Shown: positions 6,418-35,019 of the stretch, in pieces
How positions within the stretch are numbered: the stretch's first letter is position 1
Layout of the letters: the number at the start of each line of letters is the position of its first letter
DNA from: Tateyamaria omphalii
Lineage (GTDB): Bacteria > Pseudomonadota > Alphaproteobacteria > Rhodobacterales > Rhodobacteraceae
Length of the DNA stretch: 64,000 nucleotides
Assembly (NCBI RefSeq): GCF_019802125.1
Contig: NZ_JAHVHT010000002.1
Location: 496,001-560,000 of the forward strand
Direction of reading: 5' to 3'
Notes under the pieces: generated by a model
What the model saw: only the letters and a program-made list of their open reading frames with translations
The model's database searches: none
What the model was told of the DNA's origin: nothing
Translations under genes and position numbers: made by a program

Positions 6418-6436
6418 GTGACAAAAGGAAATGCAC

Positions 6437-7651
6437 ATGTCGAGCATTCTTACGAACAATAGCGCAATGGTTGCGCTGCAAACGCTGAAGTCGATCAACA
6501 AGGACCTGGCGACGACCCAAAACGAGATTTCTACCGGTAAGTCGATTGCCACGGCCAAGGACAACTCGGCTGTATGGGCCATCTCCAAAGTCATGGAATC
6601 GGATGTCGAAGGGTTCAAGGCAATTTCTGACAGCCTGGCGCTGGGGGAAAGCTCCGTCGCCGTTGCGCGCAACGCATCGGAAACGGTCACCGACCTGCTC
6701 ACCGACATCAAGGGCAAGATTGTCGCGGCGCAGGAAGACAATGTGGATCGCGCAAAGATCCAGGAAGACATTGTTGCTCTGCGTGACCAGGTGAACTCGG
6801 TTGTGTCCGCTGCTCAGTTCAACGGTTTGAACCTCATTGATGGTGCAGGGGGCGGTGCGTCGGTTCTGTCGTCTCTCGACCGTGATGCTTCTGGCGGTGT
6901 GACCGCATCGTCCATCTCCATCGCAGAGCAAGATCTGTCGACCGGGGGCTATGTTGCGCGCGCGGGCACATTTGCACTTACAACTGGTACGGCAGCGGCG
7001 ACTGGTGACAGTTTCGGTGTTTCGCTCGACGCGACAAGTGGTTCGGACACGCTGACCATCGACTCGACGAACCTGCAGGCAGGCGATCGCTTGACGCTGC
7101 GTTTTGGCGACGACGAAGTGTCCTACACGGTCTCGGCTACGGACCTCGCAACCGGTGGCGGCAATGACCCCGATGCTGTTATCGCGACCGGGCTGAAATC
7201 CGCCATCGAAGGTGGTACATCCGGAATCACTGTCGCATATGATCCGGCCAATGCGGGCGACCTGGTGATTACCAACACCAACGCGACATCTGTCTCAGTC
7301 TCCGGCCAAGTGACCAACTCTGGGTCCGGCGGACTTGGTGCTCTGTCCGCGATTGACGTGTCCAGCAGTGCAGGGGCAACTGCCGCTTTGGGTTCGATTG
7401 AAGCGCTTATTGACACAGCGATCGACGCGTCCGCTGCCTTTGGTTCTGTTGAGGGCCGGATTGAAACCCAGTCCGAGTTTATCTCGAAATTGAGCGACTC
7501 GCTCAAGTCTGGCATCGGCGCGATGGTCGATGCTGATATGGAAGAGGTTTCGGCTCGCCTGCAGGCTCTGCAGACACAACAGCAGCTTGGTGTGCAGTCG
7601 CTGTCGATTGCCAACCAGGCGCCGCAGACCATCCTGTCGCTGTTCCGCTAA
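6437..7651 (+). CDS. fliC: Flagellin
   Basis: This is flagellin, the filament subunit (404 residues). The N-terminal D0/D1 block (SSILTNNSAMVALQTLKSIN, then NEISTGKSIATAKDNSA) and the C-terminal block (QTQQQLGVQSLSIANQAPQ) are clear. Between about residues 165 and 300 lies a T/S/G-rich, beta-like insert that would form the exposed outer domain. Two in-frame ATGs are present at 6431 and 6437. I prefer 6437 because the AAGGA site then sits 7 bases upstream and the product starts MSSILTN. The leader contains two hairpins, and a terminator-like hairpin separates it from flaF. Confidence 0.96.
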   Translation: MSSILTNNSAMVALQTLKSINKDLATTQNEISTGKSIATAKDNSAVWAISKVMESDVEGFKAISDSLALGESSVAVARNASETVTDLLTDIKGKIVAAQEDNVDRAKIQEDIVALRDQVNSVVSAAQFNGLNLIDGAGGGASVLSSLDRDASGGVTASSISIAEQDLSTGGYVARAGTFALTTGTAAATGDSFGVSLDATSGSDTLTIDSTNLQAGDRLTLRFGDDEVSYTVSATDLATGGGNDPDAVIATGLKSAIEGGTSGITVAYDPANAGDLVITNTNATSVSVSGQVTNSGSGGLGALSAIDVSSSAGATAALGSIEALIDTAIDASAAFGSVEGRIETQSEFISKLSDSLKSGIGAMVDADMEEVSARLQALQTQQQLGVQSLSIANQAPQTILSLFR

Positions 7652-8094: not shown

Positions 8095-8492
8095 GTGGAT
8101 TGATTCTAAAGTTGAGCCCAAAGGAACGCGTTCTCATCAATGGAGCCGTTATTGAGAATGGTGACCGTAGAAGTCGGCTCGCCATTGTGACGCCGAACGC
8201 AAACATACTTCGGCTCCGCGATGCCGTTCATCCAGAAGATGCAAAAACCCCCGTCCGGCGTGTGTGCTACGCGGTCCAGTTGGTTTTGTCCGGCGACACC
8301 GACAAGGATGAAGCGCGCCATCCATTGCTGCGAAGCATTGAAGAGTTAAGCCAGGTGTTCGTTGATGCGGACAGTCGCAAGCATTTGGACATTGCCTCAC
8401 GGGCTCTCATTGATGGCGACCACTACCGATGTCTCAAGTCGCTTCGTGCGTTGATGCCGCGGGAAGAACGGCTATTGGTGGCGAGCCACTAG
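8091..8492 (+). CDS. flbT: Flagellin mRNA regulator FlbT
   Basis: This 133-residue FlbT family protein starts in the family pattern SGLILKLSPKERVLINGAVI and contains RLRDAVHPEDAKTPVRRVCYAVQL. FlbT binds the 5' leader of flagellin mRNA and destabilises it until the hook is complete (known in Caulobacter). It starts in an ATGA overlap with flaF and is followed after two bases by the DUF1217-like gene. The fliC-flaF-flbT order is typical of alphaproteobacteria. Confidence 0.93.
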   Translation: MSGLILKLSPKERVLINGAVIENGDRRSRLAIVTPNANILRLRDAVHPEDAKTPVRRVCYAVQLVLSGDTDKDEARHPLLRSIEELSQVFVDADSRKHLDIASRALIDGDHYRCLKSLRALMPREERLLVASH

Positions 8493-8494
8493 AG

Positions 8495-9283
8495 ATGTAT
8501 CAGCCTGTCCTCATTTCTTCCGGGCTTGTCGGCTGGCAGTTCTTGCAGCGGACATATGATCAACAGCTGGAGACGTTTAGCCAATCCGCGCAAGTCAAAC
8601 GCGACACGGATCACTTTGCCGAAAAGATAGGCTCGATTACCACTGCAGAAGACTTGGTTTCTGACAGGCAAGTTCTTACGGTTGCGCTTGGTGCATTTGG
8701 TTTGTCTGAAGACATCAACAACAAGTTCTTTATAGAGAAGATGCTTGGCGAGGGCACAACCGCCAATGACGCGCTTGCCAACCGGTTTACTGACAGCAGA
8801 TACCGTGAGTTTTCGGAAGCTTTTGGTCTTGGTCCAGGTGAGGTTCGAGGCAGTCTTTCCTCTGGCTTTGCAGACGATATCATCAGCAGATTTCGGGCCA
8901 ACAGCTTTGAGATAGAAGCGGGAAACCAGGACGAAAGTATGCGCATTGCGCTTTATGCCGAGCGTACATTGCCGGACGTTGTCAACGCTGAAGGCAGTGA
9001 CGCATCCAAGTGGTTCAACATAATGGGTCAGCCACCCTTGCGAAGCCTGTTTGAGACTGCATTAGGCCTGCCCGATGCCTTCGGGCAGGTAGATATTGAT
9101 CAGCAATTATCGGTTTTTCAAGAACGCGCCGAACGCATTCTTGGTGTGTCGGATCCGGCAGAGTTTGCAACAGAAGGCGCTCTCGACAAACTGATCACGA
9201 CATATTTTGCGCGCGCGCAGATTGAGCAGATTGGGAGTGGGGCCTCCAGTGCCTCCATAGCATTGACACTGCTGAGCGTGTAG
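8495..9283 (+). CDS. DUF1217-like flagellar-cluster protein
   Basis: This 262-residue, probably soluble protein looks like the DUF1217 family often encoded in alphaproteobacterial flagellar clusters (SSGLVGWQFLQRTYDQQLETF, LGAFGLSEDINNKFFIEKML). It is mainly helical with no signal peptide or transmembrane segment. The frame is open from 8429, but ATG 8495 lies just after the flbT stop and begins MYQPVLI, a better start. Its biochemical role is unknown to me. Co-transcription with flbT and its export-substrate-like composition suggest an axial or hook-associated component. Confidence 0.65.
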   Translation: MYQPVLISSGLVGWQFLQRTYDQQLETFSQSAQVKRDTDHFAEKIGSITTAEDLVSDRQVLTVALGAFGLSEDINNKFFIEKMLGEGTTANDALANRFTDSRYREFSEAFGLGPGEVRGSLSSGFADDIISRFRANSFEIEAGNQDESMRIALYAERTLPDVVNAEGSDASKWFNIMGQPPLRSLFETALGLPDAFGQVDIDQQLSVFQERAERILGVSDPAEFATEGALDKLITTYFARAQIEQIGSGASSASIALTLLSV

Positions 9284-9324
9284 ACCGCCAGCAGCGTCTC
9301 CATCGCTGGGACATACGCCTGTGT

Positions 9325-10680
9325 TTACTTGCGCGTTTTGCGCCCACTCGCGGTTACTCCGCCACGTCTCAACGCGAGACCGAGTTGGTCGAAACTGTGG
9401 TGACATCCCTGTTCGTGCACTTGCGACATCGCCGTATCCAGGTGAGATGACGCTTGTATCGCCATGTCGATGTCCGGATCTGTACCCTGAGTATACAATC
9501 CTGCGTTGATCATCATTTGGTTTTGAGCAAAAACGCTCATCAGTTTGCGCACTTGGGCTATTGTCTCATTCTCGGTTGTTGTGGCAGCGTCGGGCAAGCT
9601 GCGCGACACCGAACGCAGGATATCCACTGCGGGAAAGCGACCGCGCTCAGCTATTTCCCGATCAAGTACCACATGACCGTCCAGAACGCCGCGTAATATG
9701 TCGGCGATCGGTTCTTCCATGTCCGAGCCCGCGACCAGAACGCTGAAAACTCCCGTGATGTCGCCCTGGTCCGGCCCCCCCGGTCCCGCCCGTTCACACA
9801 GCGACATGATCAGATGTGATGTAGATGCGGGAAAGCCGCGCAAAACTGGGGCCTCGCCTGCAGCACTGGCGACCTCGCGGTGCGCTTCGGCGAACCGAGT
9901 GATGGAGTCTGCCAAGAATAGCACCGACATTCCTTCATCTCGAAAGTGCTCGGCCACGGCCATTGCCGTCCAGGCGCATCGTCGGCGTATGAGGGGTGAT
10001 TGATCGGATGTCGCCGCGACTACTACTGACTTTGCCAGTCCATCCGGGCCCAAAACACTATCGACAAAGTGCCGTACTTCGCGCCCACGTTCACCGATCA
10101 TCGCCACAACAACGACATCTGCGGACATGCGTTTTGCCAGCTGTCCCATGAGGTTGGACTTCCCAACACCAGAACCCGCAAACAGACCGACTCTTTGGCC
10201 CCGGACAATGGGGAGCATCGTATCGAAGACGAGATGCCCGGTGTCCATGCGCTTGCCCAATGGCCGTCTTGATGCTGCGGCGGGTGGGCTGTTCTTGAGT
10301 GGCCGGGGAATTGGACCGCATCCGAGTGGCCGACCATCAAGCGGTTCTCCGTTGGGGTCCACAATGCGACCAAGCCATGTCTCGTTTGGCGCAATCTTGT
10401 TTTGCTGATCGACAACAACGCGATCATTCAGTGCGACCCCGTCAAATGGGCCATCTGGAATGACAGTTGCGTCAGATTGAGAGAGTTGGACAACCTCGGC
10501 AGACAGTGGATCACCCATCAGACGGTTGATCGAAACGCGGTCGCCGATCCGAGCAACATCGTTCAGACCGGAGACTGTCAAAACATTCCCACGTGTTCCG
10601 TTGATACGCCCAATTGGACGAACGGCCTGTATGGCAGAAAGCTGAGTTTGCAGCATTTGCAATCGTATGGCGTGTCGCAT
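9325..10680 (-). CDS. fliI: Flagellum-specific ATPase FliI
   Basis: This 451-residue hexameric ATPase of the flagellar type III export apparatus has a Walker A motif GSGVGKS at residues 169-175 and a Walker B motif VLFLAD at 253-258, followed by SITRFAEAHREV. The beta-barrel N-terminal domain occupies roughly residues 15-90. It couples ATP hydrolysis to delivery of FliH-bound substrates to FlhA/FlhB. ATG 10680 has a GGAGAA site upstream. It is divergent from flgB and converges on the DUF1217-like gene. Confidence 0.96.
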   Translation of the reverse strand: MRHAIRLQMLQTQLSAIQAVRPIGRINGTRGNVLTVSGLNDVARIGDRVSINRLMGDPLSAEVVQLSQSDATVIPDGPFDGVALNDRVVVDQQNKIAPNETWLGRIVDPNGEPLDGRPLGCGPIPRPLKNSPPAAASRRPLGKRMDTGHLVFDTMLPIVRGQRVGLFAGSGVGKSNLMGQLAKRMSADVVVVAMIGERGREVRHFVDSVLGPDGLAKSVVVAATSDQSPLIRRRCAWTAMAVAEHFRDEGMSVLFLADSITRFAEAHREVASAAGEAPVLRGFPASTSHLIMSLCERAGPGGPDQGDITGVFSVLVAGSDMEEPIADILRGVLDGHVVLDREIAERGRFPAVDILRSVSRSLPDAATTTENETIAQVRKLMSVFAQNQMMINAGLYTQGTDPDIDMAIQASSHLDTAMSQVHEQGCHHSFDQLGLALRRGGVTASGRKTRK

Positions 10681-10724
10681 CGGCTTCTCCTGTCATCTGC
10701 AAACAGTTTTTTAGGGAATCACAG

Positions 10725-10739
10725 TTAAGCGTTGATTGA
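10725..10739. promoter_or_regulatory. CtrA-like box (TTAA-N7-TTGA)
   Basis: TTAA, seven bases, TTGA lies in the 81-bp gap between divergent fliI and flgB, one mismatch from TTAA-N7-TTAA. It is 23 bp upstream of the flgB start and 45 bp from fliI, a position fit to control both. Binding is inferred. Confidence 0.4.
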
Positions 10740-14828: not shown

Positions 14829-15311
14829 GTGAAAAAGTTGCTTCCCCTTATCCTTTTGCTGATTGGCGCGGGCGCGGGTGTCGGCGCGGGCATCTTCATG
14901 CGTCCTGAGCCAGATCCGACCGTCGCGGAAAGCTCAGAAGATACAGCTGAGGTGGAAAAGCAGGCTGAAGAGAACACGGATATTTCGGATCGCGAATATG
15001 TTAAGATGAACAACCAATTCGTGGTGCCTGTTGTCAAAGGCGATTCTGTTCAAGCGCTTGTAGTGATGTCGCTCAGTCTTGAGGTCCCCGCAGGTCAGAA
15101 AGATGCAATCTATTCGCGGGAGCCAAAACTACGGGACTCGTTCCTGCAGGTTCTGTTCGATCATGCGAATGTTGGTGGCTTTGATGGGGCGTTTACCAAC
15201 GCAAACAATCTTGCGGTGTTGCGGAGCGCTCTAAGAGAGGTTGCGCAGAAAGATATGGGCGATCAGATATCCGACGTCCTGATCCTGGAGATCGCGCGCC
15301 AAGACTATTGA
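14829..15311 (+). CDS. FliL-like basal-body protein (copy 1, flgH operon)
   Basis: This 160-residue protein has a single N-terminal transmembrane helix (about 4-23), an acidic linker and a C-terminal FliL-like domain with a VLRSALREVAQKDMGDQISDVLILEI pattern (given by its ends). FliL-type proteins surround the stators and aid torque generation. The start is GTG 14829 with AGGAG 8 bases upstream; the nearby ATG runs into a stop. A second FliL-like gene lies at 24177-24680, so the organism carries two. This copy closes the rod/ring operon and converges on the FliJ-like gene. Confidence 0.78.
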   Translation: MKKLLPLILLLIGAGAGVGAGIFMRPEPDPTVAESSEDTAEVEKQAEENTDISDREYVKMNNQFVVPVVKGDSVQALVVMSLSLEVPAGQKDAIYSREPKLRDSFLQVLFDHANVGGFDGAFTNANNLAVLRSALREVAQKDMGDQISDVLILEIARQDY

Positions 15312-16812: not shown

Positions 16813-17579
16813 CTCCGAGCCTCGAATGGGGACGCCATGAACTGGTCCAATGCGGACAACCAGACCGAAAGCATGATCGGGGTAGCGAGAAACAGCAGGA
16901 ACAGACCGCCAAGAGTAATCACCGGTGCCCCGACAAACGCCACCATGAGCTGAGGCATTGCTTTGTTGATGACCCCAAGTGCCAGATTATAAAGAGCTGA
17001 CATCAAGAGAAATGGCGCGGCCAGCAGAAACGCGAGTTCAAATGCATAGGCAATTTGATCAAGCCCCCAATCCGCTACGTCGCTCCCGGACGCGAACAAT
17101 CCCATTGGCAGCAAGACGTAAGAGTGGATCAAAAGCTGTGCTGCCTTGACATGCAGCCCGGCCAATACGGCGAGCGCGATGGCTCCAACGGTCAGGATGT
17201 ATCCCATGGCGGGAAGCGGTTCGATGGCTGCTCCGCCAAGAATCTGAGAAAGCGACGTTGATTGCGCTGCGATCGCGCCTGCTGTCTGCAAGGCCAAAAC
17301 AAAGAGACGGATGCCAAGCCCGATCAAGACACCGGCAATGGTTTCCGTCATCGCTAAAACGACCATGGCATTGATTGTAAAGTCTGGCAAAACGCCGGGG
17401 GCGGCCGGCGCGACGACCAGAGTAAAGGCAATTGCAATAACCAACTTGATCCTTACGGGAACCGACTGTTCTCCGAACCCCGGAAGCAACGCAATTGTCG
17501 CGCCGACGCGCAGAAATACGGCAAACCCCAACCAGATTTCCATTTGAAGGACGCCAATCAACTCTGCTGCGGCAGTCAT
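16809..17579 (-). CDS. fliR: Flagellar export gate protein FliR
   Basis: This 256-residue integral membrane protein has the FliR pattern (FAVFLRVGATIALLPGFGEQSVPVRIK at the N-terminal side; PFLLMSALYNLALGVINKAMPQLMVAFVGAP region near the C terminus, given by its ends). It forms the export gate with FliP and FliQ. It overlaps flhA and flhB by 4 bp on both sides, so the three are translated together. Confidence 0.95.
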   Translation of the reverse strand: MTAAAELIGVLQMEIWLGFAVFLRVGATIALLPGFGEQSVPVRIKLVIAIAFTLVVAPAAPGVLPDFTINAMVVLAMTETIAGVLIGLGIRLFVLALQTAGAIAAQSTSLSQILGGAAIEPLPAMGYILTVGAIALAVLAGLHVKAAQLLIHSYVLLPMGLFASGSDVADWGLDQIAYAFELAFLLAAPFLLMSALYNLALGVINKAMPQLMVAFVGAPVITLGGLFLLFLATPIMLSVWLSALDQFMASPFEARR

Positions 17580-19657
17580 GCAGCGACAACTCCGACAAGG
17601 GCCGGGCGCGCATCCACGCCGATCTCTTCAAAGGAAAGCACCGGGTTGTTCAAACCCTTGGCGCGCATCATGGTTTTCAGGAAACGCCGCCGACGCGTAT
17701 TGGTTACGACGGCCGGAAAAATCCCTTGGTCGCCTGCATCCTGTAGCTTCTCAGATACGTTGTCGGCCAAGCGGTTGAAAAGGTCTGGCGGAAGAGCAAT
17801 GTCCAGACCCCGATCTGCATCTACCTGATAGCTTGCGAATGTGTCTTCCCACTCTGGAGCGAGTTGTATCAGAGGAAGTGTCCCGTCATCACGTCGTATG
17901 CCGGAAATAATCTGAAACCCGAGGCGTTGTCGAACATGCTCGCAAATCGCTTCCGGTTGTGCATTGATCGCGCGTGCTTCGGATACAGCTTCCAGGATCA
18001 GCGGTAGATTTCGGATGGAGACCTGCTCTTCGAGCAATAGGCGAAGGACAGCGTGCAGCACGTCTACAGGCACCTTGTCCGGGATAAGCGCGTCCAGCAT
18101 CTTGCGGTTCGCTTCTGCCCTGACCGGATCTGAAACGGACTTCATTTCCTCCAACAATCGACGAAGTGATTTCAGGGTCAAAAGTCTGCTGAAATTGCGT
18201 TTAACCACTTCAAGCAGATGAGTGGCCAAAATCTCTGTTGGCGTCACCATCGTCACGCCGGACAGTGCAGCTTTTTCCTGATCCTGCGTGGCAATCCACC
18301 GAGCTGGGGCGCCGTATACAGGTTCGGTCGTATCCTGCCCATTGGGCAGGCTTTCTACACTGTCCGGCGCGAGCGCAAGGATTTCATCCGGCCTGATTGT
18401 ACCGCGAGCCTGTTCAACTCCTTGAATACGCAGCACGTATCCACCATTAGGCAGGCCAGGATTGTCCGTTAGGCGGATCTCGGGAAGGATTACGCCAAAG
18501 ACTGTCGCGACATGTGTGCGCATGTTGGCAATACGCGCATCCAAGCCGGTGCCCGGGTCGAGGACCATGTTGACCAGATCTGGGGCAAACTCGACGTGTA
18601 CGTCGTCAAGCTCAAGAATGTCGCCGAGAGATTTGTCTGGTGCCGCCTCGGTGACTTCGTCAAGGTCTATCTCTGCGACCGCCTGATTTTCAGCTCTTTG
18701 CCTTACGAAGTAAGCAGCAACAGCAAGGCCGAACGCACCTGCCATAAAAGGTATGAGCGGCAAGCCCGGGACCAGCCCCATCAACGCCATCAATACTGCG
18801 ACAGTCGCAAGAGCGGCAGGATGTCGGCCAAGTTGTCCAAACACGGCCAGATCGGTCGCACCTTTTGCGCCACCGCGCGCAAGCAACAACGCCGAAGCAA
18901 TCGATATGACAACTGCCGGGATTTGCGAAACGAGGCCGTCTCCGACGGTAAGTATTGCATAGGTTTCAAAGGCGCTGCTCAAGGCCATGCCGTGAACTGC
19001 TACACCCATGACCAAACCTGCCACGAGGTTCAACAGTGTAATGAGCAAGCCGGCAACAGCGTCGCCTTTCACAAACTTTGATGCGCCATCAAGTGACCCA
19101 AAGAAGGTTGTCTCCGCTTGCTCCAGCTCACGCCGAGCCTTGGCTTCTTTGTGATCTATCGCACCAGCGGACATGTCACTGTCGATAGCAAGCTGTTTGC
19201 CGGGCATTCCATCCAGCGCGAACCGCGCGCCGACTTCGGCCATTCGCGTTGCGCCCTTGGTGATGACCATGAAGTTCACGATCAGGAGAACGCAGAACAC
19301 CACCAGTCCCAAAAACACGCTGCCGCCCATAATGAATTGAGCGAAGCCTTCAATAACATTTCCGGCGGCGTGAGTGCCGCTGTGGCCCTGGCCGATGATC
19401 AGTTTTGTTGATGAAACGTTGAGAGAAAGGCGCAACATCAACGAAGCAAGCAGGATTGTGGGGAACGAGGAAAAGTCGAGTGGGCGCTCAATAAAAAGCG
19501 TAATTGTAAAAATCAGGATAGCGAGTGCAAATGACGCGGCCAATCCGATATCCAGCACCCACGCAGGCATTGGCAGGATCATCATGACGATGATCGCCAT
19601 AAGTGCGATGGCGAGCAGCACGGTCGGGCTGAAAATAGCAGAGGTGGTCAATCTCAT
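17576..19657 (-). CDS. flhA: Flagellar export gate protein FlhA
   Basis: This 693-residue protein has about eight N-terminal transmembrane helices, the FHIPEP signature around RMAEVGARFALDGMPGKQ, and a large cytoplasmic C-terminal domain that forms the nonameric docking ring for chaperone-substrate complexes. Length is as expected for the family. It is the first gene of the flhA-fliR-flhB-FliJ-like run. The 297 bases upstream contain no recognised gene and should hold its promoter. Confidence 0.96.
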   Translation of the reverse strand: MRLTTSAIFSPTVLLAIALMAIIVMMILPMPAWVLDIGLAASFALAILIFTITLFIERPLDFSSFPTILLASLMLRLSLNVSSTKLIIGQGHSGTHAAGNVIEGFAQFIMGGSVFLGLVVFCVLLIVNFMVITKGATRMAEVGARFALDGMPGKQLAIDSDMSAGAIDHKEAKARRELEQAETTFFGSLDGASKFVKGDAVAGLLITLLNLVAGLVMGVAVHGMALSSAFETYAILTVGDGLVSQIPAVVISIASALLLARGGAKGATDLAVFGQLGRHPAALATVAVLMALMGLVPGLPLIPFMAGAFGLAVAAYFVRQRAENQAVAEIDLDEVTEAAPDKSLGDILELDDVHVEFAPDLVNMVLDPGTGLDARIANMRTHVATVFGVILPEIRLTDNPGLPNGGYVLRIQGVEQARGTIRPDEILALAPDSVESLPNGQDTTEPVYGAPARWIATQDQEKAALSGVTMVTPTEILATHLLEVVKRNFSRLLTLKSLRRLLEEMKSVSDPVRAEANRKMLDALIPDKVPVDVLHAVLRLLLEEQVSIRNLPLILEAVSEARAINAQPEAICEHVRQRLGFQIISGIRRDDGTLPLIQLAPEWEDTFASYQVDADRGLDIALPPDLFNRLADNVSEKLQDAGDQGIFPAVVTNTRRRRFLKTMMRAKGLNNPVLSFEEIGVDARPALVGVVAA

Positions 19658-19954
19658 TGGTCAAATCCACAACGGACTGAGACGCAATTTTGCAACCGGT
19701 TCGGTGTCGAGTAATCCAGGATCTTCGATCTATTGAACAGGTGAATGATGCGCAGAACGACGGTTGCTTTCACATCAATTCGTGATTGCGGCGAACGCCG
19801 CGGCCTTCTGAAGGCCGAAATAGAGCGTAAGAAATTCCAGATCTTAAGCCACGGCTTGGTTATGGAAGTCACCTGCTGTCCTCATCACTTCTGTGATTTC
19901 GGCAGACTAGAGCTGATCATGTTTAGATTTGGTAACCAACCAAAGATCTGCCGA
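19658..19954. other. Intergenic region upstream of flhA
   Basis: No convincing gene is seen in these 297 bases; the open frames present have no ribosome site or recognisable product. A perfect hairpin, CGGCCTT/AAGGCCG with a 3-base loop, lies at 19801-19817. It has no T run on either side. The flhA promoter is expected here, but no CtrA-like box was found. Confidence 0.5.
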
Positions 19955-22258
19955 CTAGTTTTCACGAGTGGCTACATCATCCATGTTTGCGTCAAGCAGT
20001 TGTTTGATCACATCGCGCGATTCTTCACTTTCGTTCAACGCACGTTCAAGGCGCCCTAACATGCCTTCGAGGTCAGTCGACGTGTTTAATTGTGACGATG
20101 CTATTTCTAACGTCGGACCAAAAGTCGGCGCATCTCGGCTGAGAAGCGTTTTCCACTCATCCGACAACCATGCGGCTTGTAGGCTATGCGTTTCATCCTC
20201 AAGCTGAGAAAAGACTTCGTAGGCATTTGTGTGATCACCGGCCTGACTGCTCGCCGCGGCCCGCAATCGAGCGGCCTCTTTGCCATCCAGCCCCCTCAAA
20301 ACGGCTAGCGCTTCTTGCGGGCGTGACAAGCCAAGAGAGATCTTAGCTCTCAACAACTTGTTGCGAACAGTTTGAGGCACATCACGTTGGGAAAACATCA
20401 CTTGTTCGGCCTCTGAGAAAAAACCGAGGTCAGCCAGTCGATCTGCCAGCATGAGTACTGAAGAAAGCGAGAGCTCGGACGCTCTATTCGGCATGTTTGC
20501 AAATGCGTGTCGGACAAATGTTGAGTCATCCGCGTCCAGGGAAAGGGCTTCCAGAACAGTTGATCGCAGGGTGTCGGCTGTGTTCTTCATCTTTGTTGAC
20601 CTGATGCGATCCAAGGCCGAGAACGCCTCGTCGAACTGGTTGGACTTGGCCAAGGCAAGCACGTGAGTGCGCCGCAATTCGTCTCCGAGCGGGTCATCTC
20701 GGAATTCAATCGCATAGGCCTCTACCAATGTTGCAACGTCGTTGCTGATTGCCACACCAGCTTCAAACTGCGTATCCACATAGCGCACAAGCGCCTCTGC
20801 CGATTGTTGGTCGTTGGATGCAACAACATCCTCCAATCTGCTCTGTGCCGTCTCGACCTTGCCCTGCACAAGCTCGATCTCCGCTTTGGCCAACTCTGCC
20901 GGAGACGTAAGAGGCTCTGAAGTACGTTCGAGGCCTCTCAACGCTGAAGCAGCACCGTCTTCATCACCATAGTCAAGTAGCTTTCTGCTAAGTATCGGAG
21001 CGAGATGTCGCCGCAAATGAATAGGCAGGCTGCTCAAAGTTCGAATGGCTGCAAGGTTGTTCACAGAGTCTGAGGGGTGTAACGAACTTGATGATAATAT
21101 CGCCCAAAGTGCTGCTTCAGAATCGCAATCCAGGTAATTGGCGAGATAGCCATCCACTTTTCTATCACCCAATTCCAGTATATCCGCGATATCAATCAAT
21201 GCCGGGTTTTCTGACCACAGCTCGGCGTTCATTCTAAGCACTTGTCGAGCTTCTGGACCGAAGCCAAAGTGCAGGTACAACCGGGCTAGATCCAGCGCGA
21301 CTTTCGTGTTCAGCTTGTCAAACTCCGAGTACAAATTCTTGCGTAGAACGGCTAATTGTTGTGCAAAATCTGCTTCAGAGGCCCAATCCTGAATCCTTAC
21401 TTTGGATGGGTCAACGCATCCAAAGCCGAACGTAGTCGAGGCCTGATTTTGTCGCGACGTTTCAGTTGGTACGTCATGGGATGAAGTGATGCGCAAATTC
21501 ACGCTGGCCGAACGCATCGATTCAGTGGCCTCACTTTGCGAGCGCGAGGAATCAAATATCCGCGTGTCGATTTGCGCGCGTCGTTCCTGCTCATAGATGA
21601 GCCAGGGTTTTCTACTTGGATTCAAAACGCCGGTCGTCGCTGCTTCGCCAATTCTTTCGGCTAGTTTTTCCTGCGCTCTTTGTAATTTGGCTGGGTTGCT
21701 CTCCTGGCGATCAATCCTCGGTTCGATCACGGTTGGCATTTCTACTGATATCGTCCGTGAGTCCGAAGCAACGATTTGAGATACTTGAACTGTTGTGTTT
21801 TCCGATGGCTCCTTTTTCGGAGCCCTTGGTGCAAATCTGAGTGGCGTGGATCCGGTAAAGAGGGAAGAAGGAAATGAGGCTTCCTCTATCGAGTTTTCAG
21901 GTTTCAGGTTTTGTCGACCGACATCAATAACGACCATGCGGTTTCCTGCCCAAAAGACTTCCGCTCTGCATTGACAGTTGAAGACTATTTCGATCGTATC
22001 TGAAGAGGCTGAGACGGCATCAATAAAAGTGCGGTCAATTTTCTCGAATATGCTTGAAGTCTCAAATCCATTTTCGTGATCAACGATGCGAACTCGGGCG
22101 CCCAGCGAATCCTGCTCGACCGACCATTGAGTACCTGTTGCAACATCCAGGACAAGTCGCGAGAAATTTTCATGCGCTCCGGATCGCACTGTGATTTCCG
22201 CAGAGATTGCGAAGCTGCTGGAGATAATCCAAAGAATTAGAGAGGCGAGTGTGCGCAT
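19955..22258 (-). CDS. Large exported protein coupled to motA; unknown, AMIN-like N terminus plus helical repeats
   Basis: I do not recognise a named family for this 767-residue protein. It starts with a signal peptide (about 1-19, ...SSSFAISA). A beta-rich segment at about 20-115 (RLVLDVATGTQW, RMVVIDVG) resembles AMIN-type domains that bind peptidoglycan or outer-membrane machines. A variable linker follows, and from about residue 300 to the end there are A/L-rich helical pairs that look like TPR/SEL-type repeats. Its ATG overlaps the motA stop (TAATG), so the two are coupled. A MotE-like gene is in the same run. In Sinorhizobium the periplasmic MotC works with MotB and is folded by MotE, so a MotC-like stator role is a reasonable inference, not proof. 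Confidence 0.6.
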   Translation of the reverse strand: MRTLASLILWIISSSFAISAEITVRSGAHENFSRLVLDVATGTQWSVEQDSLGARVRIVDHENGFETSSIFEKIDRTFIDAVSASSDTIEIVFNCQCRAEVFWAGNRMVVIDVGRQNLKPENSIEEASFPSSLFTGSTPLRFAPRAPKKEPSENTTVQVSQIVASDSRTISVEMPTVIEPRIDRQESNPAKLQRAQEKLAERIGEAATTGVLNPSRKPWLIYEQERRAQIDTRIFDSSRSQSEATESMRSASVNLRITSSHDVPTETSRQNQASTTFGFGCVDPSKVRIQDWASEADFAQQLAVLRKNLYSEFDKLNTKVALDLARLYLHFGFGPEARQVLRMNAELWSENPALIDIADILELGDRKVDGYLANYLDCDSEAALWAILSSSSLHPSDSVNNLAAIRTLSSLPIHLRRHLAPILSRKLLDYGDEDGAASALRGLERTSEPLTSPAELAKAEIELVQGKVETAQSRLEDVVASNDQQSAEALVRYVDTQFEAGVAISNDVATLVEAYAIEFRDDPLGDELRRTHVLALAKSNQFDEAFSALDRIRSTKMKNTADTLRSTVLEALSLDADDSTFVRHAFANMPNRASELSLSSVLMLADRLADLGFFSEAEQVMFSQRDVPQTVRNKLLRAKISLGLSRPQEALAVLRGLDGKEAARLRAAASSQAGDHTNAYEVFSQLEDETHSLQAAWLSDEWKTLLSRDAPTFGPTLEIASSQLNTSTDLEGMLGRLERALNESEESRDVIKQLLDANMDDVATREN

Positions 22259-23127
22259 TATGCTGCGTTTTGCTTTACTGATTTCAAAGCGTCTTCCAAA
22301 TCTGAAAACGATGGGCGACAGTGGGATGGGGTGTTTTGGCGACCAACTTCAATACAGATATTGGTTGCGTGGTTATGCAAATTGGCCACCAATACTTCCC
22401 GAATGAGTTGATAAAAGTGGCTATCTTCTTCCACCACAGCTTTAACTTTGGCAGCGAACGGGCCAACCAATCCATACGCGAGAAAAACACCCAAGAAAGT
22501 ACCAACAAGTGCACCACCGATCAGCTTTCCAAGGATTTCAGGGGGCTGATCAATCGAAGCCATCGTTTTGATAACGCCCAAAACGGCAGCAACGATCCCC
22601 AACGCAGGCAAGCCGTCCGCAACGGTTTGCAAAGCATGGCTTGAGTGAAGGGCGTGATGCATGTTTGTTTCCATGCGCTTTTCCAGAACTTCTTCGACTT
22701 GATGAGGGTCATCGTAGTTCATTGAGGCGGATCGCATCGTGTCGCAAATCAGAGCAGTTGCCTCGCCATCTGCAACGATCTTGGGGTAACGTGAAAAGAT
22801 CGAAGAAGTTTCGGGATCTTCTATGTGCTCCTCGATCGCGACTGGGTTTTGTCTTGCAAGACGTATCAACTCAAACAACAGGCACAACAAATCTTTGTAG
22901 TCTTCATGCGCCCATTTCGGGCCCTTAAAGACTTTTCCAAGGTCCTTTACAGTACGCTTAACCTCAGCCATGGAATTGCTGATCAAGAAAGCACCGACCG
23001 CGGCGCCAAGAATCATTGTCATTTCAAATGGGAGAGATTTCAGAATAATCCCCATTTTCCCACCGGCAGCCAGGTAACCGCCGAACACCATCACAAAAAT
23101 GGTTACAATGCCGATGATGCCGATCAC
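22258..23127 (-). CDS. motA: Flagellar motor stator protein MotA
   Basis: This 289-residue protein has four transmembrane helices, a large cytoplasmic loop and the conserved stator region LPALGIVAAVLGVIKTM in the third helix. MotA with MotB forms the proton channel that drives rotation. motB is not adjacent: it is a single gene about 12 kb away (34050-34889). motA is followed by the 767-residue exported protein with a 1-bp overlap and preceded by the MotE-like gene after 68 bp. Confidence 0.95.
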   Translation of the reverse strand: MIGIIGIVTIFVMVFGGYLAAGGKMGIILKSLPFEMTMILGAAVGAFLISNSMAEVKRTVKDLGKVFKGPKWAHEDYKDLLCLLFELIRLARQNPVAIEEHIEDPETSSIFSRYPKIVADGEATALICDTMRSASMNYDDPHQVEEVLEKRMETNMHHALHSSHALQTVADGLPALGIVAAVLGVIKTMASIDQPPEILGKLIGGALVGTFLGVFLAYGLVGPFAAKVKAVVEEDSHFYQLIREVLVANLHNHATNICIEVGRQNTPSHCRPSFSDLEDALKSVKQNAA

Positions 23128-23195: not shown

Positions 23196-23798
23196 TCAGT
23201 TTTTTGGTGCTTGAGCGTTTCGCCCAGCCAATATCGCACTTATCGAGTATGCAACTTGCGGATCAAGACCGGCCAGGATCTTGGCGGCGACAGTGGGTTC
23301 CATACGGCCCATAAAGCCTGCCGCAAAAGCTGGCTCCATTGCCTCAAATAGTGCGGCGGCGTCCTTGGGTTTCATGTTTTCATATACTGCAGTCAGCCGT
23401 GTCAAATCATCCTCAGCTGCTGTCTGAGCAATGGAAAGCGTAGCGCGCAGACGCTGCTCAGCATCCTCGAGTGCCTCTAGACGACGTTCGATCTCGATTT
23501 GTGCGACATCCAACGCTTTGCTTCTCGCGGCCAAAACACCTTCGCGTTTGACTACATTCTTCTCACGCGCGCGAAGCGCATCAAGCAGGGATTGAATGTT
23601 TACTTCGTCGCTTACTTGCGGAGTTGCGGAGGCTGAAACGGTGCTCAAGGGAAGTGAAAAGCCTTCTGCCAAGTCGACTTCAGCCAATGCTGAATTTGCA
23701 CTGGTTCCGATCCGGACTGCAGCCGATCCAACCAACAAAATAATTAGAAGCGCTACGGAGCCGCGGTTGGAAAACCTGCTTGGTCGATGCTTTTTCAT
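23196..23798 (-). CDS. MotE-like / MgtE-N-type flagellar protein
   Basis: This 200-residue protein has one N-terminal transmembrane segment or uncleaved signal (about 14-34), a coiled coil at about 70-125, and a C-terminal MgtE-N-like helical domain (LTAVYENMKPKDAAALFEAMEP, AAKILAGLDPQVAYSISAIL). This architecture is typical of proteins annotated MotE or FliG-like near alphaproteobacterial motor genes. MotE of Sinorhizobium is a periplasmic chaperone for MotC. It overlaps the upstream coiled-coil gene by 4 bp and precedes motA. Confidence 0.72.
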   Translation of the reverse strand: MKKHRPSRFSNRGSVALLIILLVGSAAVRIGTSANSALAEVDLAEGFSLPLSTVSASATPQVSDEVNIQSLLDALRAREKNVVKREGVLAARSKALDVAQIEIERRLEALEDAEQRLRATLSIAQTAAEDDLTRLTAVYENMKPKDAAALFEAMEPAFAAGFMGRMEPTVAAKILAGLDPQVAYSISAILAGRNAQAPKN

Positions 23799-24166
23799 TG
23801 CCGGACCCCCGCACTGCGCCTGGTAAAGATCGGTTCACTTTTCTCCTGAGGAGCTTGTTGAACCGGGTCGCTGGGTTGCATTGCTTGCACGTCATGCAAT
23901 GCTGCCATCTGCAGCTCCAGTCGCCTTGCGATTTCGGTTGCTCGCTGGGTCGTGTCATTGAGCGTTTCGGCCGATGCGGCTGCTGTTTTCTGAGCAGCCT
24001 CCAAGGTCTTCGTCAGGTCATCGACTTGGCTAGACAGCATTGCAACTGCTCCGCCAACCCCTTTTTCAAGACTGTTGAAGCGCTTCAACCTGCGACTCAA
24101 AACAAAGCAGTAGAAGCCTGCACCCAGTGCACCGGCAGCCAGCAAGATGTCAGCAATCAAGTCCAT
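23795..24166 (-). CDS. Small bitopic membrane coiled-coil protein (DUF6468-like?)
   Basis: This 123-residue protein has one N-terminal membrane helix (about 4-24, ending FVLSRRLKRF), a coiled-coil cytoplasmic part (DLTKTLEAAQKTAAASAETL...ATEIARRLELQ) and a short polar tail. It lies between fliL and the MotE-like gene, which it overlaps by 4 bp. It recalls DUF6468 proteins and the Caulobacter flagellar positioning factor PflI in layout, but I cannot confirm this without an alignment. A role at the flagellar base is inferred from context only. Confidence 0.5.
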   Translation of the reverse strand: MDLIADILLAAGALGAGFYCFVLSRRLKRFNSLEKGVGGAVAMLSSQVDDLTKTLEAAQKTAAASAETLNDTTQRATEIARRLELQMAALHDVQAMQPSDPVQQAPQEKSEPIFTRRSAGVRQ

Positions 24167-24176
24167 GTATCCACCA

Positions 24177-24680
24177 TCAGCTCAAGACAAATTCCATAAT
24201 GAGCAGGTCATTGACCCGCCCTGCCCCGGTCACGATTTGCACCCGGCGAAGCATCTGCGCCCGCAACCGCATAAGGGCTGCAGGGCTTTCGATATCTTTT
24301 GTTTCCAATGCACGAAGGTACCCGTTCAATACGTCAACAACCCGCGGCAGTATGGATTCAACATCGGCTGCGTGCTGAGATGGCACTTCCAACTGCGCGC
24401 GGAAGCGCAGGTGCCGCCCCTGCGAACTGGGAGCGAGAGAGATAACCATCGGCTCAATGGCAACGAAAGATACGTTGGGCAGCTCCGCCGGCGTCTCACT
24501 CTGCCTGGCCACTTCCGTTGCCGATTCGGGTGCAAGTATGATGCCGGAGAAAGTTGCAAAAAAACCGCCCCCCACCCCGAGCAGAAGCGCAACAACACCA
24601 AGTATCAAAGGTACTTTTGATGCTTTGGCTGCCTCTTCAGGTGTATCTTCAACTGCGTCCGTCATCCGAGTTCCGTTCAA
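24177..24680 (-). CDS. fliL: Flagellar basal-body protein FliL (copy 2, next to fliF)
   Basis: This 167-residue protein has a cytoplasmic N terminus, one transmembrane helix (about 25-47) and a FliL domain (NVSFVAIEPMVISL, GRHLRFRAQLEV, ending in a LRRVQIVTGAGRVNDLLIMEFVLS-type helix and strand, given by its ends). It matches classic FliL better than the copy at 14829. It heads the run fliL, coiled-coil protein, MotE-like, motA, 767-residue protein, and is divergent from fliF. Confidence 0.88.
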   Translation of the reverse strand: MNGTRMTDAVEDTPEEAAKASKVPLILGVVALLLGVGGGFFATFSGIILAPESATEVARQSETPAELPNVSFVAIEPMVISLAPSSQGRHLRFRAQLEVPSQHAADVESILPRVVDVLNGYLRALETKDIESPAALMRLRAQMLRRVQIVTGAGRVNDLLIMEFVLS

Positions 24681-34049: not shown

Positions 34050-34889
34050 TCACTCTCGCAGAAAGATCACTTCGATCCGGTTGTTCCGCACGGCCATCGG
34101 ATTCTTGACCGCTGCCTCGCGATCGGCATGTCCCGTGATCCGGGTCACACGTTCGGTCGCCACGCCTGTTTGCTTGAGCAACTTGCGCATCGCGTCTGCC
34201 CGGGCCACAGACATTTTCCAAGCTGCGCGGTCTGCAAGCACAATCGGTTCGGCCTGAACGTGACCTTCGACCGCGATGTCGTTTTCAACCGTGCGTGCCG
34301 CTTCGACTATCAACCGCGCAAGATCGCGCAGCAGTGACGTCGGTATGTCCGTCTCATCTTCAAAAAGAGGCGTGTCTTCCAGTGCGAACAACTCGATGAC
34401 CAACCCTTCATCGGTCAGACGGGTTACGATGTGTTGTAACTCGTTGTCCATGACCTTGGTTTCACCGCCTTTGCCGAGCAGCTTCGCTTCCAGGGACTCA
34501 AACACCTCGTTCTGTTCGGCAGACGGATCGTCACCGTCCTGCCCGCCGATTTCACCACGGGCCTGTTTCGCCTCCGTGGGACGTTGCGAAGACGCGCCGG
34601 TTCCATTTTGCGGCAAGGTTACTTCTGAAAACACACTGTCACCGCCGAAAGCGCCATCGCCGCCACCGGAAATGCGATTGATCGGGATCGTCGGCGAGAA
34701 ATAGTCGGCAATCCCCTTGCGTTGCTTTTCCGTCGTCGCATTCAAGAGCCACATCAACATGAAGAACGCCATCATCGCGGTCACGAAGTCCGCATAGGCC
34801 ACCTTCCAGGCGCCGCCATGGTGGCCATCGCCGCCCGACACCTTTTTCTTCTTGATGATGATTGGCCGCGCATTGGCTTGCACGCTCAT
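34050..34889 (-). CDS. motB: Flagellar motor stator protein MotB
   Basis: This 279-residue protein has a K-rich cytoplasmic N terminus, one transmembrane helix (about 32-50) with the proton-accepting Asp34 (AYADFVTAMMAFFML), and a C-terminal OmpA-like peptidoglycan-binding domain (VEGHVQAEPIVLADRAAWKMSVARADAMRKLL region). It anchors the stator to the wall. ATG 34889 has GAGGTG upstream and is preferred to the ATG at 34910. It is a single gene upstream of flgE, separated from motA by about 12 kb. Confidence 0.94.
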   Translation of the reverse strand: MSVQANARPIIIKKKKVSGGDGHHGGAWKVAYADFVTAMMAFFMLMWLLNATTEKQRKGIADYFSPTIPINRISGGGDGAFGGDSVFSEVTLPQNGTGASSQRPTEAKQARGEIGGQDGDDPSAEQNEVFESLEAKLLGKGGETKVMDNELQHIVTRLTDEGLVIELFALEDTPLFEDETDIPTSLLRDLARLIVEAARTVENDIAVEGHVQAEPIVLADRAAWKMSVARADAMRKLLKQTGVATERVTRITGHADREAAVKNPMAVRNNRIEVIFLRE

Positions 34890-35019
34890 ATCCCACACCT
34901 CGATTTTCACCCAGAGAAGGACGTAGCATGGGGCCAGTTACGGCGCTCTTAACGGTTCGAATTGTCGATATTCAGTGTCGACGTCTTGCACCTTACCCGG
35001 CCCGGTGCGCAGATGACGC

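Follow-up and report, generated by a model that had tools for sequence, protein, structure and literature searches.

What does the gene that directly follows motA in a flagellar operon of Tateyamaria omphalii (Rhodobacteraceae) encode, and is its product part of a described system or of a new one? The gene lies in a window of 64,000 nucleotides, the whole stretch of DNA analysed here (GCF_019802125.1, contig NZ_JAHVHT010000002.1, positions 496,001 to 560,000), and a first-pass annotation had presented its product as an uncharacterised exported protein that might be a distinct kind of stator partner. Our preferred reading, to which we assign a probability of roughly 0.8, is that the product is the MotK of the T. 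omphalii flagellum, a Sec-exported protein that, with MotE, helps to hold the MotA/MotB stators or to switch them on. The epithet "uncharacterised" has to be dropped: MotK received its name, and was mutated, in work on Cereibacter sphaeroides (PMC10954123), and mutants have been published for CP4 of Phaeobacter inhibens (PMC12363192) and FssB of Caulobacter (PMC7885107).

The frame comprises 767 codons and a stop, read on the minus strand from 22258 down to 19955. The first-pass annotation, which left the strand unstated, had both extent and length exactly right, and over the same stretch of the plus strand the given frame is full of stops. At 22260-22256 the letters TAATG let the motK ATG and the motA stop share one base, the overlap that had been pointed out earlier. 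This is a genuine gene and not a chance reading frame, because 102 of the 149 family genomes surveyed, one per genus, contain homologues. The genes run on the minus strand in the order fliL, pflI-like, motE, motA, motK, flhA, fliR, flhB (Table 1). The motA product scores 365.8 bits on TIGR03818 (cut-off 303.8). The MotE-like gene that had been placed in the same operon is indeed there: its product reaches 25.1 bits on MgtE_N (E 2.7e-5), slightly below the cut-off of 25.9, while the FlbB-collar model gives it 28.6 bits (E 1.1e-6), far below the cut-off of 110. The genome that carries motK also holds motE, motA and motB. With a single MotB_plug match, and with one MotA above the TIGR03818 cut-off and a weak second match (E 1.7e-4), it leaves hardly any doubt about the stator partners of the protein.

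The flagellar cluster has the order motB-flgE-flgK-flgL-flgI / fliP-fliN-fliH-fliF / fliL-pflI-motE-motA-motK-flhA-fliR-flhB / fliL'-flgH-flgA-flgG. The family scan supports motB, flgE, flgK, flgI, fliP, fliF, both fliL genes, motA, flhA, flgH, flgA, flgG, the flagellin and fliI. For the flgL place it gives a flagellin-type gene, and for fliH there was no Pfam match at 1e-4; fliR, flhB and pflI were named from position and from matches in other loci, and fliN from the order alone. The same gene order is listed for the fla1-type cluster of P. inhibens (PMC12363192), a type that we take to be the Fla2 of workers on C. sphaeroides; the P. inhibens report assigns one cluster of C. sphaeroides to the fla1 type and has C. 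sphaeroides as its fla3 reference.

Some further features of the cluster may be recorded here. It holds a second FliL-family gene at 14829-15311 on the plus strand (PF03748, E 3.2e-6). A DUF1217 protein (8429-9283, plus strand, E 5.8e-41) follows the flagellin and two small frames in the flaF/flbT positions, and its position makes it the probable CP1 of the P. inhibens study (PMC12363192). CtrA-like sites of the form TTAA-N7-TTAAC with at most one mismatch number 9 in the window against 1.41 expected, with overlapping pairs just upstream of motB and of the FliI-type gene (e.g. 34937-34953 and 10724-10739). Upstream of fliL, where a CtrA box is known from C. sphaeroides, no site lies within one mismatch; a site with two mismatches can be read there by eye at 24727-24712 (minus).

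Table 1. Features of the motK region and of the surrounding flagellar cluster, in window coordinates
Feature	Position	Strand	Basis or remark
motK (feature under study), exported AMIN + TPR-like periplasmic protein, 767 aa	19955..22258	minus	
Sec signal peptide, residues 1-20, cleavage between AISA and E by eye	22199..22258	minus	first predicted helix 2-15
AMIN domain, residues 22-115, C95-x-C97 motif	21914..22195	minus	AlphaFold2 and AmiC superposition
Linker, residues 116-276, mostly low confidence, one helix 189-208	21431..21913	minus	AlphaFold2
TPR-like helical solenoid, residues 280-724, C281 and C378	20087..21421	minus	AlphaFold2 and alignments
C-terminal helix, residues 733-766	19961..20062	minus	AlphaFold2; TPR_14 best stretch 733-765
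motA	22258..23127	minus	TIGR03818
motE (MgtE_N/FlgY-like), no cysteine	23196..23798	minus	weak MgtE_N and FlbB-collar scores
pflI-like gene	23795..24166	minus	same slot as in L033, phmmer match there E 3e-32; Pfam weak only
fliL	24177..24680	minus	PF03748 E 3.7e-13
motB (MotB_plug + OmpA)	34050..34910	minus	sole MotB_plug match in this genome
flhA, next gene downstream of motK	17576..19657	minus	family scan
Flagellin	6431-7651		
FliI-type ATPase	10680-9325		

The identification rests above all on homology. BLASTP aligned the window protein with a 652-residue protein of locus L033 at 25% identity over 625 residues (E 3e-37), and the similarity extends along the length of the protein. Gene lengths, operon order and a strong PufX match suggest that L033 is a C. 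sphaeroides-type fla2 locus; it carries fliL, pflI, motE, motA and the 652-residue frame in one operon, and the published C. sphaeroides MotK and MotE measure 652 and 185 residues in the same operon order (PMC10954123), both of which L033 reproduces. The window protein has four cysteines (C95, C97, C281 and C378), each of which aligns with a cysteine of the L033 protein. The Fla2 MotK of C. sphaeroides (RSWS8N_12065; PMC10954123) likewise occupies the slot after motA with its start overlapping the motA stop, just as the window gene directly follows motA in a fliL-pflI-motE-motA operon, and the two proteins share the succession of signal peptide, AMIN domain, linker and helical repeats.

The two loci also differ. 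The C. sphaeroides protein has 652 residues against 767 in the window, and the gap between motK and flhA, geneless in the window (19658-19954), holds in L033 a frame of 226 residues (9245-9925) that we take, judging by eye, for the lytic transglycosylase described in the P. inhibens study. The MotE of C. sphaeroides forms a disulfide-linked dimer, its Cys-to-Ala form being undetectable (PMC10954123), whereas the window MotE contains no cysteine at all. Among 90 aligned MotEs, that of the window included, 45 lack a cysteine beyond position 40. Among the points that speak against the MotK reading are these: the identity to the L033 protein is only 25%, the window MotE is without the cysteine tied to dimerisation and stability in C. 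sphaeroides, and six genomes of the family combine a MotA above the cut-off with no MotK match and no nearby motE. We regard the window protein as a roseobacter MotK, a further member of a known family and an ordinary motor part that is probably essential.

The predicted structure fits this assignment. An AlphaFold2 model built from 77 aligned sequences has a mean pLDDT of 83.5 and a pTM of 0.64. Export had been proposed from the N-terminus, and a Sec signal is visible there by eye. Residues 22-115 form eight strands and a short helix, a sandwich on which the AMIN domain of AmiC (4bin, residues 33-145) superposes over MotK residues 19-116 with a Z of 11.9 and 2.2 A for 97 aligned residues, so that the AMIN-like N-terminus suspected in the first-pass annotation is borne out by the fold. 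The Pfam models give less, as PF24837 reaches 16.6 bits against a cut-off of 27 and PF11741 is unlisted among the matches. The fold is nonetheless also backed by sequence, because the A1 profile matches four of six picked short open reading frames from across the class, at profile positions 3-164, and all four carry Amidase_3 together with a PF11741 AMIN; the other two show a weak AMIN-like match only. The linker falls below a pLDDT of 50 at 121-186, 215-258 and 262-275. Beyond it, helices span residues 284 to 766, in keeping with the helical pairs that had been read as far as the C-terminus, and TPR_14 is matched at 23.9 bits against a cut-off of 23.5, the remaining TPR models staying under theirs. 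R34, C281, E336 and C378 are invariant in both alignments A1 and A3, and C95 and C97 are conserved at >=90%; the pair C281-C378 may form a disulfide.

Searches of known structures point towards the motor as well. The best of 1211 Foldseek matches in the PDB is 9hmf_K (E 4.3e-7), a chain of the periplasmic scaffold in the Campylobacter jejuni motor; a designed PPR protein comes next (E 4.0e-5). TPR-type folds match widely, and a TM of 0.15 with 11% identity across 903 columns means that parts agree and not the rigid whole. Chain K is presumably PflA, since its 773 residues equal the PflA 16-788 construct (PMC11870540). A second-look aligner that reranks the Foldseek matches has no 9hmf among its 50 matches, which is no evidence against the Foldseek match. 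The PDB sequence search with the window protein returned nothing at E<=1, and the 11 weak matches of profile A3 in the PDB (best E 0.0053), mostly eukaryotic helical proteins and Pup, were taken as chance or repeat matches.

Since wall amidases carry AMIN domains, and a lytic transglycosylase gene stands just downstream in P. inhibens and C. sphaeroides, the only two of five strains for which it is reported (PMC12363192), the protein might be thought an exported enzyme, or a protein of wall remodelling, that is unrelated to the motor and sits in the operon by chance. The Pfam and NCBIfam matches up to E 1, however, include no enzyme domain, nor does any of them link the protein to an unrelated exported enzyme family; the C-terminus consists of helical repeats, and the gene co-occurs with TIGR03818 MotA in a count that is not corrected for relatedness. 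For want of an enzyme domain in either collection we rejected this explanation, which we consider very improbable.

MotA above the TIGR03818 cut-off was found in 110 of the 149 family genomes; 101 have both proteins, 1 has MotK alone, 9 have MotA alone and 38 have neither, the genomes being counted here irrespective of relatedness. Contig ends account for G040 and G113, two of the ten discordant genomes. Two others retain the operon: in G023 the motK slot holds only a short unmatched frame, and in G039 it holds a mini-MotK of 309 residues. The remaining six have no motE within the 16.5-16.8 kb fetched around motA. The mini-MotK (L203:8836-9762, plus strand) keeps the signal, the AMIN with its CxC, further cysteines and a C-terminal piece, and has lost most of the repeats; its last cysteine resembles C378 by eye. 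It is possibly a natural minimal form, possibly a decaying gene. In 15 genomes drawn from those listed without a MotK match in the class-wide profile search, a MotB_plug search for a motB-motC pair found matches in 6, and a plasmid search returned one record, from Paroceanicella profunda (27% identity over 66% of the query).

The neighbourhood was followed in the best 80 of 86 relatives from named genomes, which were found through the motif VRSGEH[EGD]xFT and are therefore biased to typical members. In all 80 loci motK comes after motA; the overlap between its start and the motA stop amounts to 4 bases in 61 loci and to a single base in 16, and is absent in 3. Only 52 of the 80 have a motE match upstream, which rules out a fliL-pflI-motE-motA-motK order that is always intact; among the other 28, locus L079 ends at motA and 27 have no match in about 5 kb upstream. 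Salipiger, Mameliella and Puniceibacterium are among the genera with such loci. All 13 genomes given to a motE search yielded a match, and in five with a separate motA-motK (G067, G088, G025, G086 and G002) motE was found elsewhere. Thus motA is the constant neighbour of motK, because it precedes motK throughout even where motE has moved away.

Published mutants bear on what MotK does. The motK and motE mutants of C. sphaeroides form filaments, with similar amounts of extracellular hook protein, but do not swim; MotE binds both MotK and MotB2, the binding of MotK to MotB2 being weaker; MotE is unstable without MotK; and MotK is exported and found at the flagellated pole, where the localisation of MotK-sfGFP needs MotA2/MotB2 and is dimmer without MotE (PMC10954123). 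In Caulobacter, a mutant in FssB (CC_2058), a proposed MotK homologue, is nonmotile though flagellated (PMC7885107). In P. inhibens, CP4 (PGA1_c35690) is essential for motility; its mutant has a reduced exoproteome, with fewer flagellar proteins than the wild type, that still includes FliC, FlgK and FlgE, and the mutant of CP3, which fills the MotE slot, secretes only FlgH and shows no flagella (PMC12363192). The discussion of that report calls CP1 and CP3, not CP4, late-acting, in conflict with its own results section.

The secretion defects in P. inhibens, together with the instability of MotE in C. sphaeroides cells lacking MotK, would suit a protein acting mainly at the stage of assembly or export, or as a stability factor for MotE, with the loss of rotation following as a secondary effect. 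Against such a role stand the filaments and the hook protein of the C. sphaeroides mutants, the flagellated fssB mutant, the dependence of MotK-sfGFP on MotA2/MotB2, the continued secretion of FliC, FlgK and FlgE by the CP4 mutant, and the neighbourhood itself, in which the constant partner over the 80 loci is motA and not motE. Given the defects of the CP3 and CP4 mutants we leave an assembly role some room, as an improbable explanation. The idea of a stator partner, by contrast, draws support from the homology to MotK, the coupling to motA and the paralysis of the published motK mutant (PMC10954123). Of the earlier proposal of a distinct stator-anchoring or stator-stabilising factor, the role thus stands as likely, and the notion of a distinct, undescribed system falls, MotK being already known (PMC10954123).

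The motor function in T. omphalii is argued by analogy, and the following mechanism is put forward on that footing. MotK, exported by the Sec pathway, would act in the periplasm together with MotE and would help MotA/MotB units to be held or switched on at the motor. It may be a spoke of the PflA type bridging MotE to MotB, in which the TPR-like solenoid would point inward to the coiled coil of a FlgY-like MotE E-ring around the MS ring, and the AMIN domain, on its flexible linker, would reach outward near the stator and the cell wall and steady MotB. Both the spoke position and the end that would face MotE are inferred from the counterparts in C. jejuni. There, stator density is absent without PflA, whose AMIN lies at the rim, and is like wild type without FlgY (PMC11870540); cells lacking FlgY are motile (PMC13023049). 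The analogy of E-ring and spoke is therefore imperfect, because loss of FlgY preserves stators and motility, unlike loss of MotE.

Whether the AMIN domain touches the wall is a separate step. The authors of the MotK study favour wall binding (PMC10954123), and the close fold match is to the AMIN of AmiC, which is described as peptidoglycan-binding; that the model's AMIN domain may bind peptidoglycan too is our guess. In PflA, however, the AMIN lies at the rim and the loop that follows wraps PflB (PMC11870540), as one would expect if the domain were a protein-docking module without wall contact and MotK a spoke or bracket instead of a peptidoglycan anchor. We put this version at somewhat under even odds; it alters one step of the preferred explanation and not the identity of the protein, so that its odds overlap with those of MotK as a stator-holding factor.

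MotK seems, from profile comparisons, to belong to a family that spans the Alphaproteobacteria. Searched against 385 alphaproteobacterial genomes, a profile of 45 family MotKs matched in 167, of which 4 belong to the family. This figure is not a count of MotKs, as many matches cover just the N-terminus and some are bound to be amidases. From the better-scoring genomes outside the family we picked 20, carrying 14 family labels, with some same-family ones passed over. In all 20 selected loci a long frame (872-1420 residues) and a motE match are at most 5 kb apart; 19 of the loci have fliL nearby and 12 have a pflI match. AMIN-region matches (domain E <0.01) number two in 9 of these frames, one in 9 and none in 2. 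Profile-profile comparison of MotK with the long proteins gave E 5.8e-36 with 405 helical columns, and when the profiles were split, helical against helical gave 1.9e-26 and AMIN against AMIN 1.2e-17, with a probability of 0.2% for the cross control; these E-values are for single comparisons, and TPR-type repeats can inflate the helical score.

The same loci outside the family (L164-L182) have PF13677 MotB-like matches between motE and the MotK-like frame, two in 10 of the 20, one in 5 and none in 5, and these short proteins stand there without a MotA. Among four such pairs that were scanned (L166, L169, L174 and L168), OmpA matches are missing from the first member, which also shows no pore aspartate by eye, and are present in three of the four second members. 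We found no report of tandem MotB-like pairs in the open-licence papers searched.

Against this background the MotK of the window can be set beside proteins known under other names. 1) P. inhibens CP4 shares the slot between motA and (sltF-)flhA, the gene order and the requirement for swimming (PMC12363192), and is equated here with the window MotK by position and not by sequence. The P. inhibens report, for which CP3 and CP4 are "enigmatic", finds CP1-4 only in fla1-type clusters and not outside Rhodobacterales; the names MotK and MotE have no occurrence in its main text (PMC12363192), and we found no link between CP4 and MotK in the open-licence papers searched. 2) Caulobacter FssB (CC_2058) resembles MotK in its Sec signal, TPR repeats, place beside motE, an AMIN-like N-terminus in models made by others, and its flagellated, nonmotile mutant (PMC7885107). 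This link is partly in print, as the C. sphaeroides authors noted a structural likeness of MotK to CC_2058 in the absence of BLAST similarity (PMC10954123), and the searches of alphaproteobacteria by the C. jejuni group started from MotC, MotK and CC_2058 as queries (PMC11870540). In our comparison the class-wide relatives stand in for CC_2058; their frames are longer than the window protein, and 9 of the 20 have two AMIN-region matches. 3) C. jejuni PflA has the same order of AMIN, loop and TPR, gives the best structural match, and meets FlgY as MotK meets MotE (PMC13023049, PMC11870540); it differs in sequence and overall shape, and works with PflB. A 2026 review considers MotE homologous to FlgY, and both MotC and MotK PflA-like (PMC13023049). 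4) Sinorhizobium meliloti MotC is likewise periplasmic, stabilised by MotE and needed for motor function (PMC13023049). By its description, however, it has TPRs and no AMIN (PMC13023049), which agrees with the earlier suggestion of a MotE partner distinct from the shorter MotC, and the NCBIfam scan of the window protein has no MotC-named model among its matches.

Taken further, MotK, CP4, FssB and the class-wide AMIN-TPR proteins could form one inherited family of spokes with PflA as a distant counterpart, in which the number of AMIN domains (one or two) and the length of the solenoid, which runs from the 309-residue mini-MotK up to frames near 1,400 residues, would tune the reach or firmness of the hold on the stator, and the MotB-like pairs without MotA would be docking subunits in many lineages; we offer this as a tentative proposal and think it rather unlikely to hold in full.

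Two points are new here: by position, CP3 and CP4 of P. inhibens occupy the MotE and MotK slots, and profile comparison appears to tie MotK to the long proteins beside motE across the Alphaproteobacteria. If CP3 is MotE and CP4 is MotK, the published restriction to Rhodobacterales fails for these two. Both proteins would thereby gain a concrete and testable role, and the class-wide link speaks for a MotE/MotK module that the Alphaproteobacteria inherited, as opposed to one newly recruited by a single order. The value of the finding lies in joining MotK, CP4, FssB and the PflA-type spokes, relatives that carry several names in the literature.
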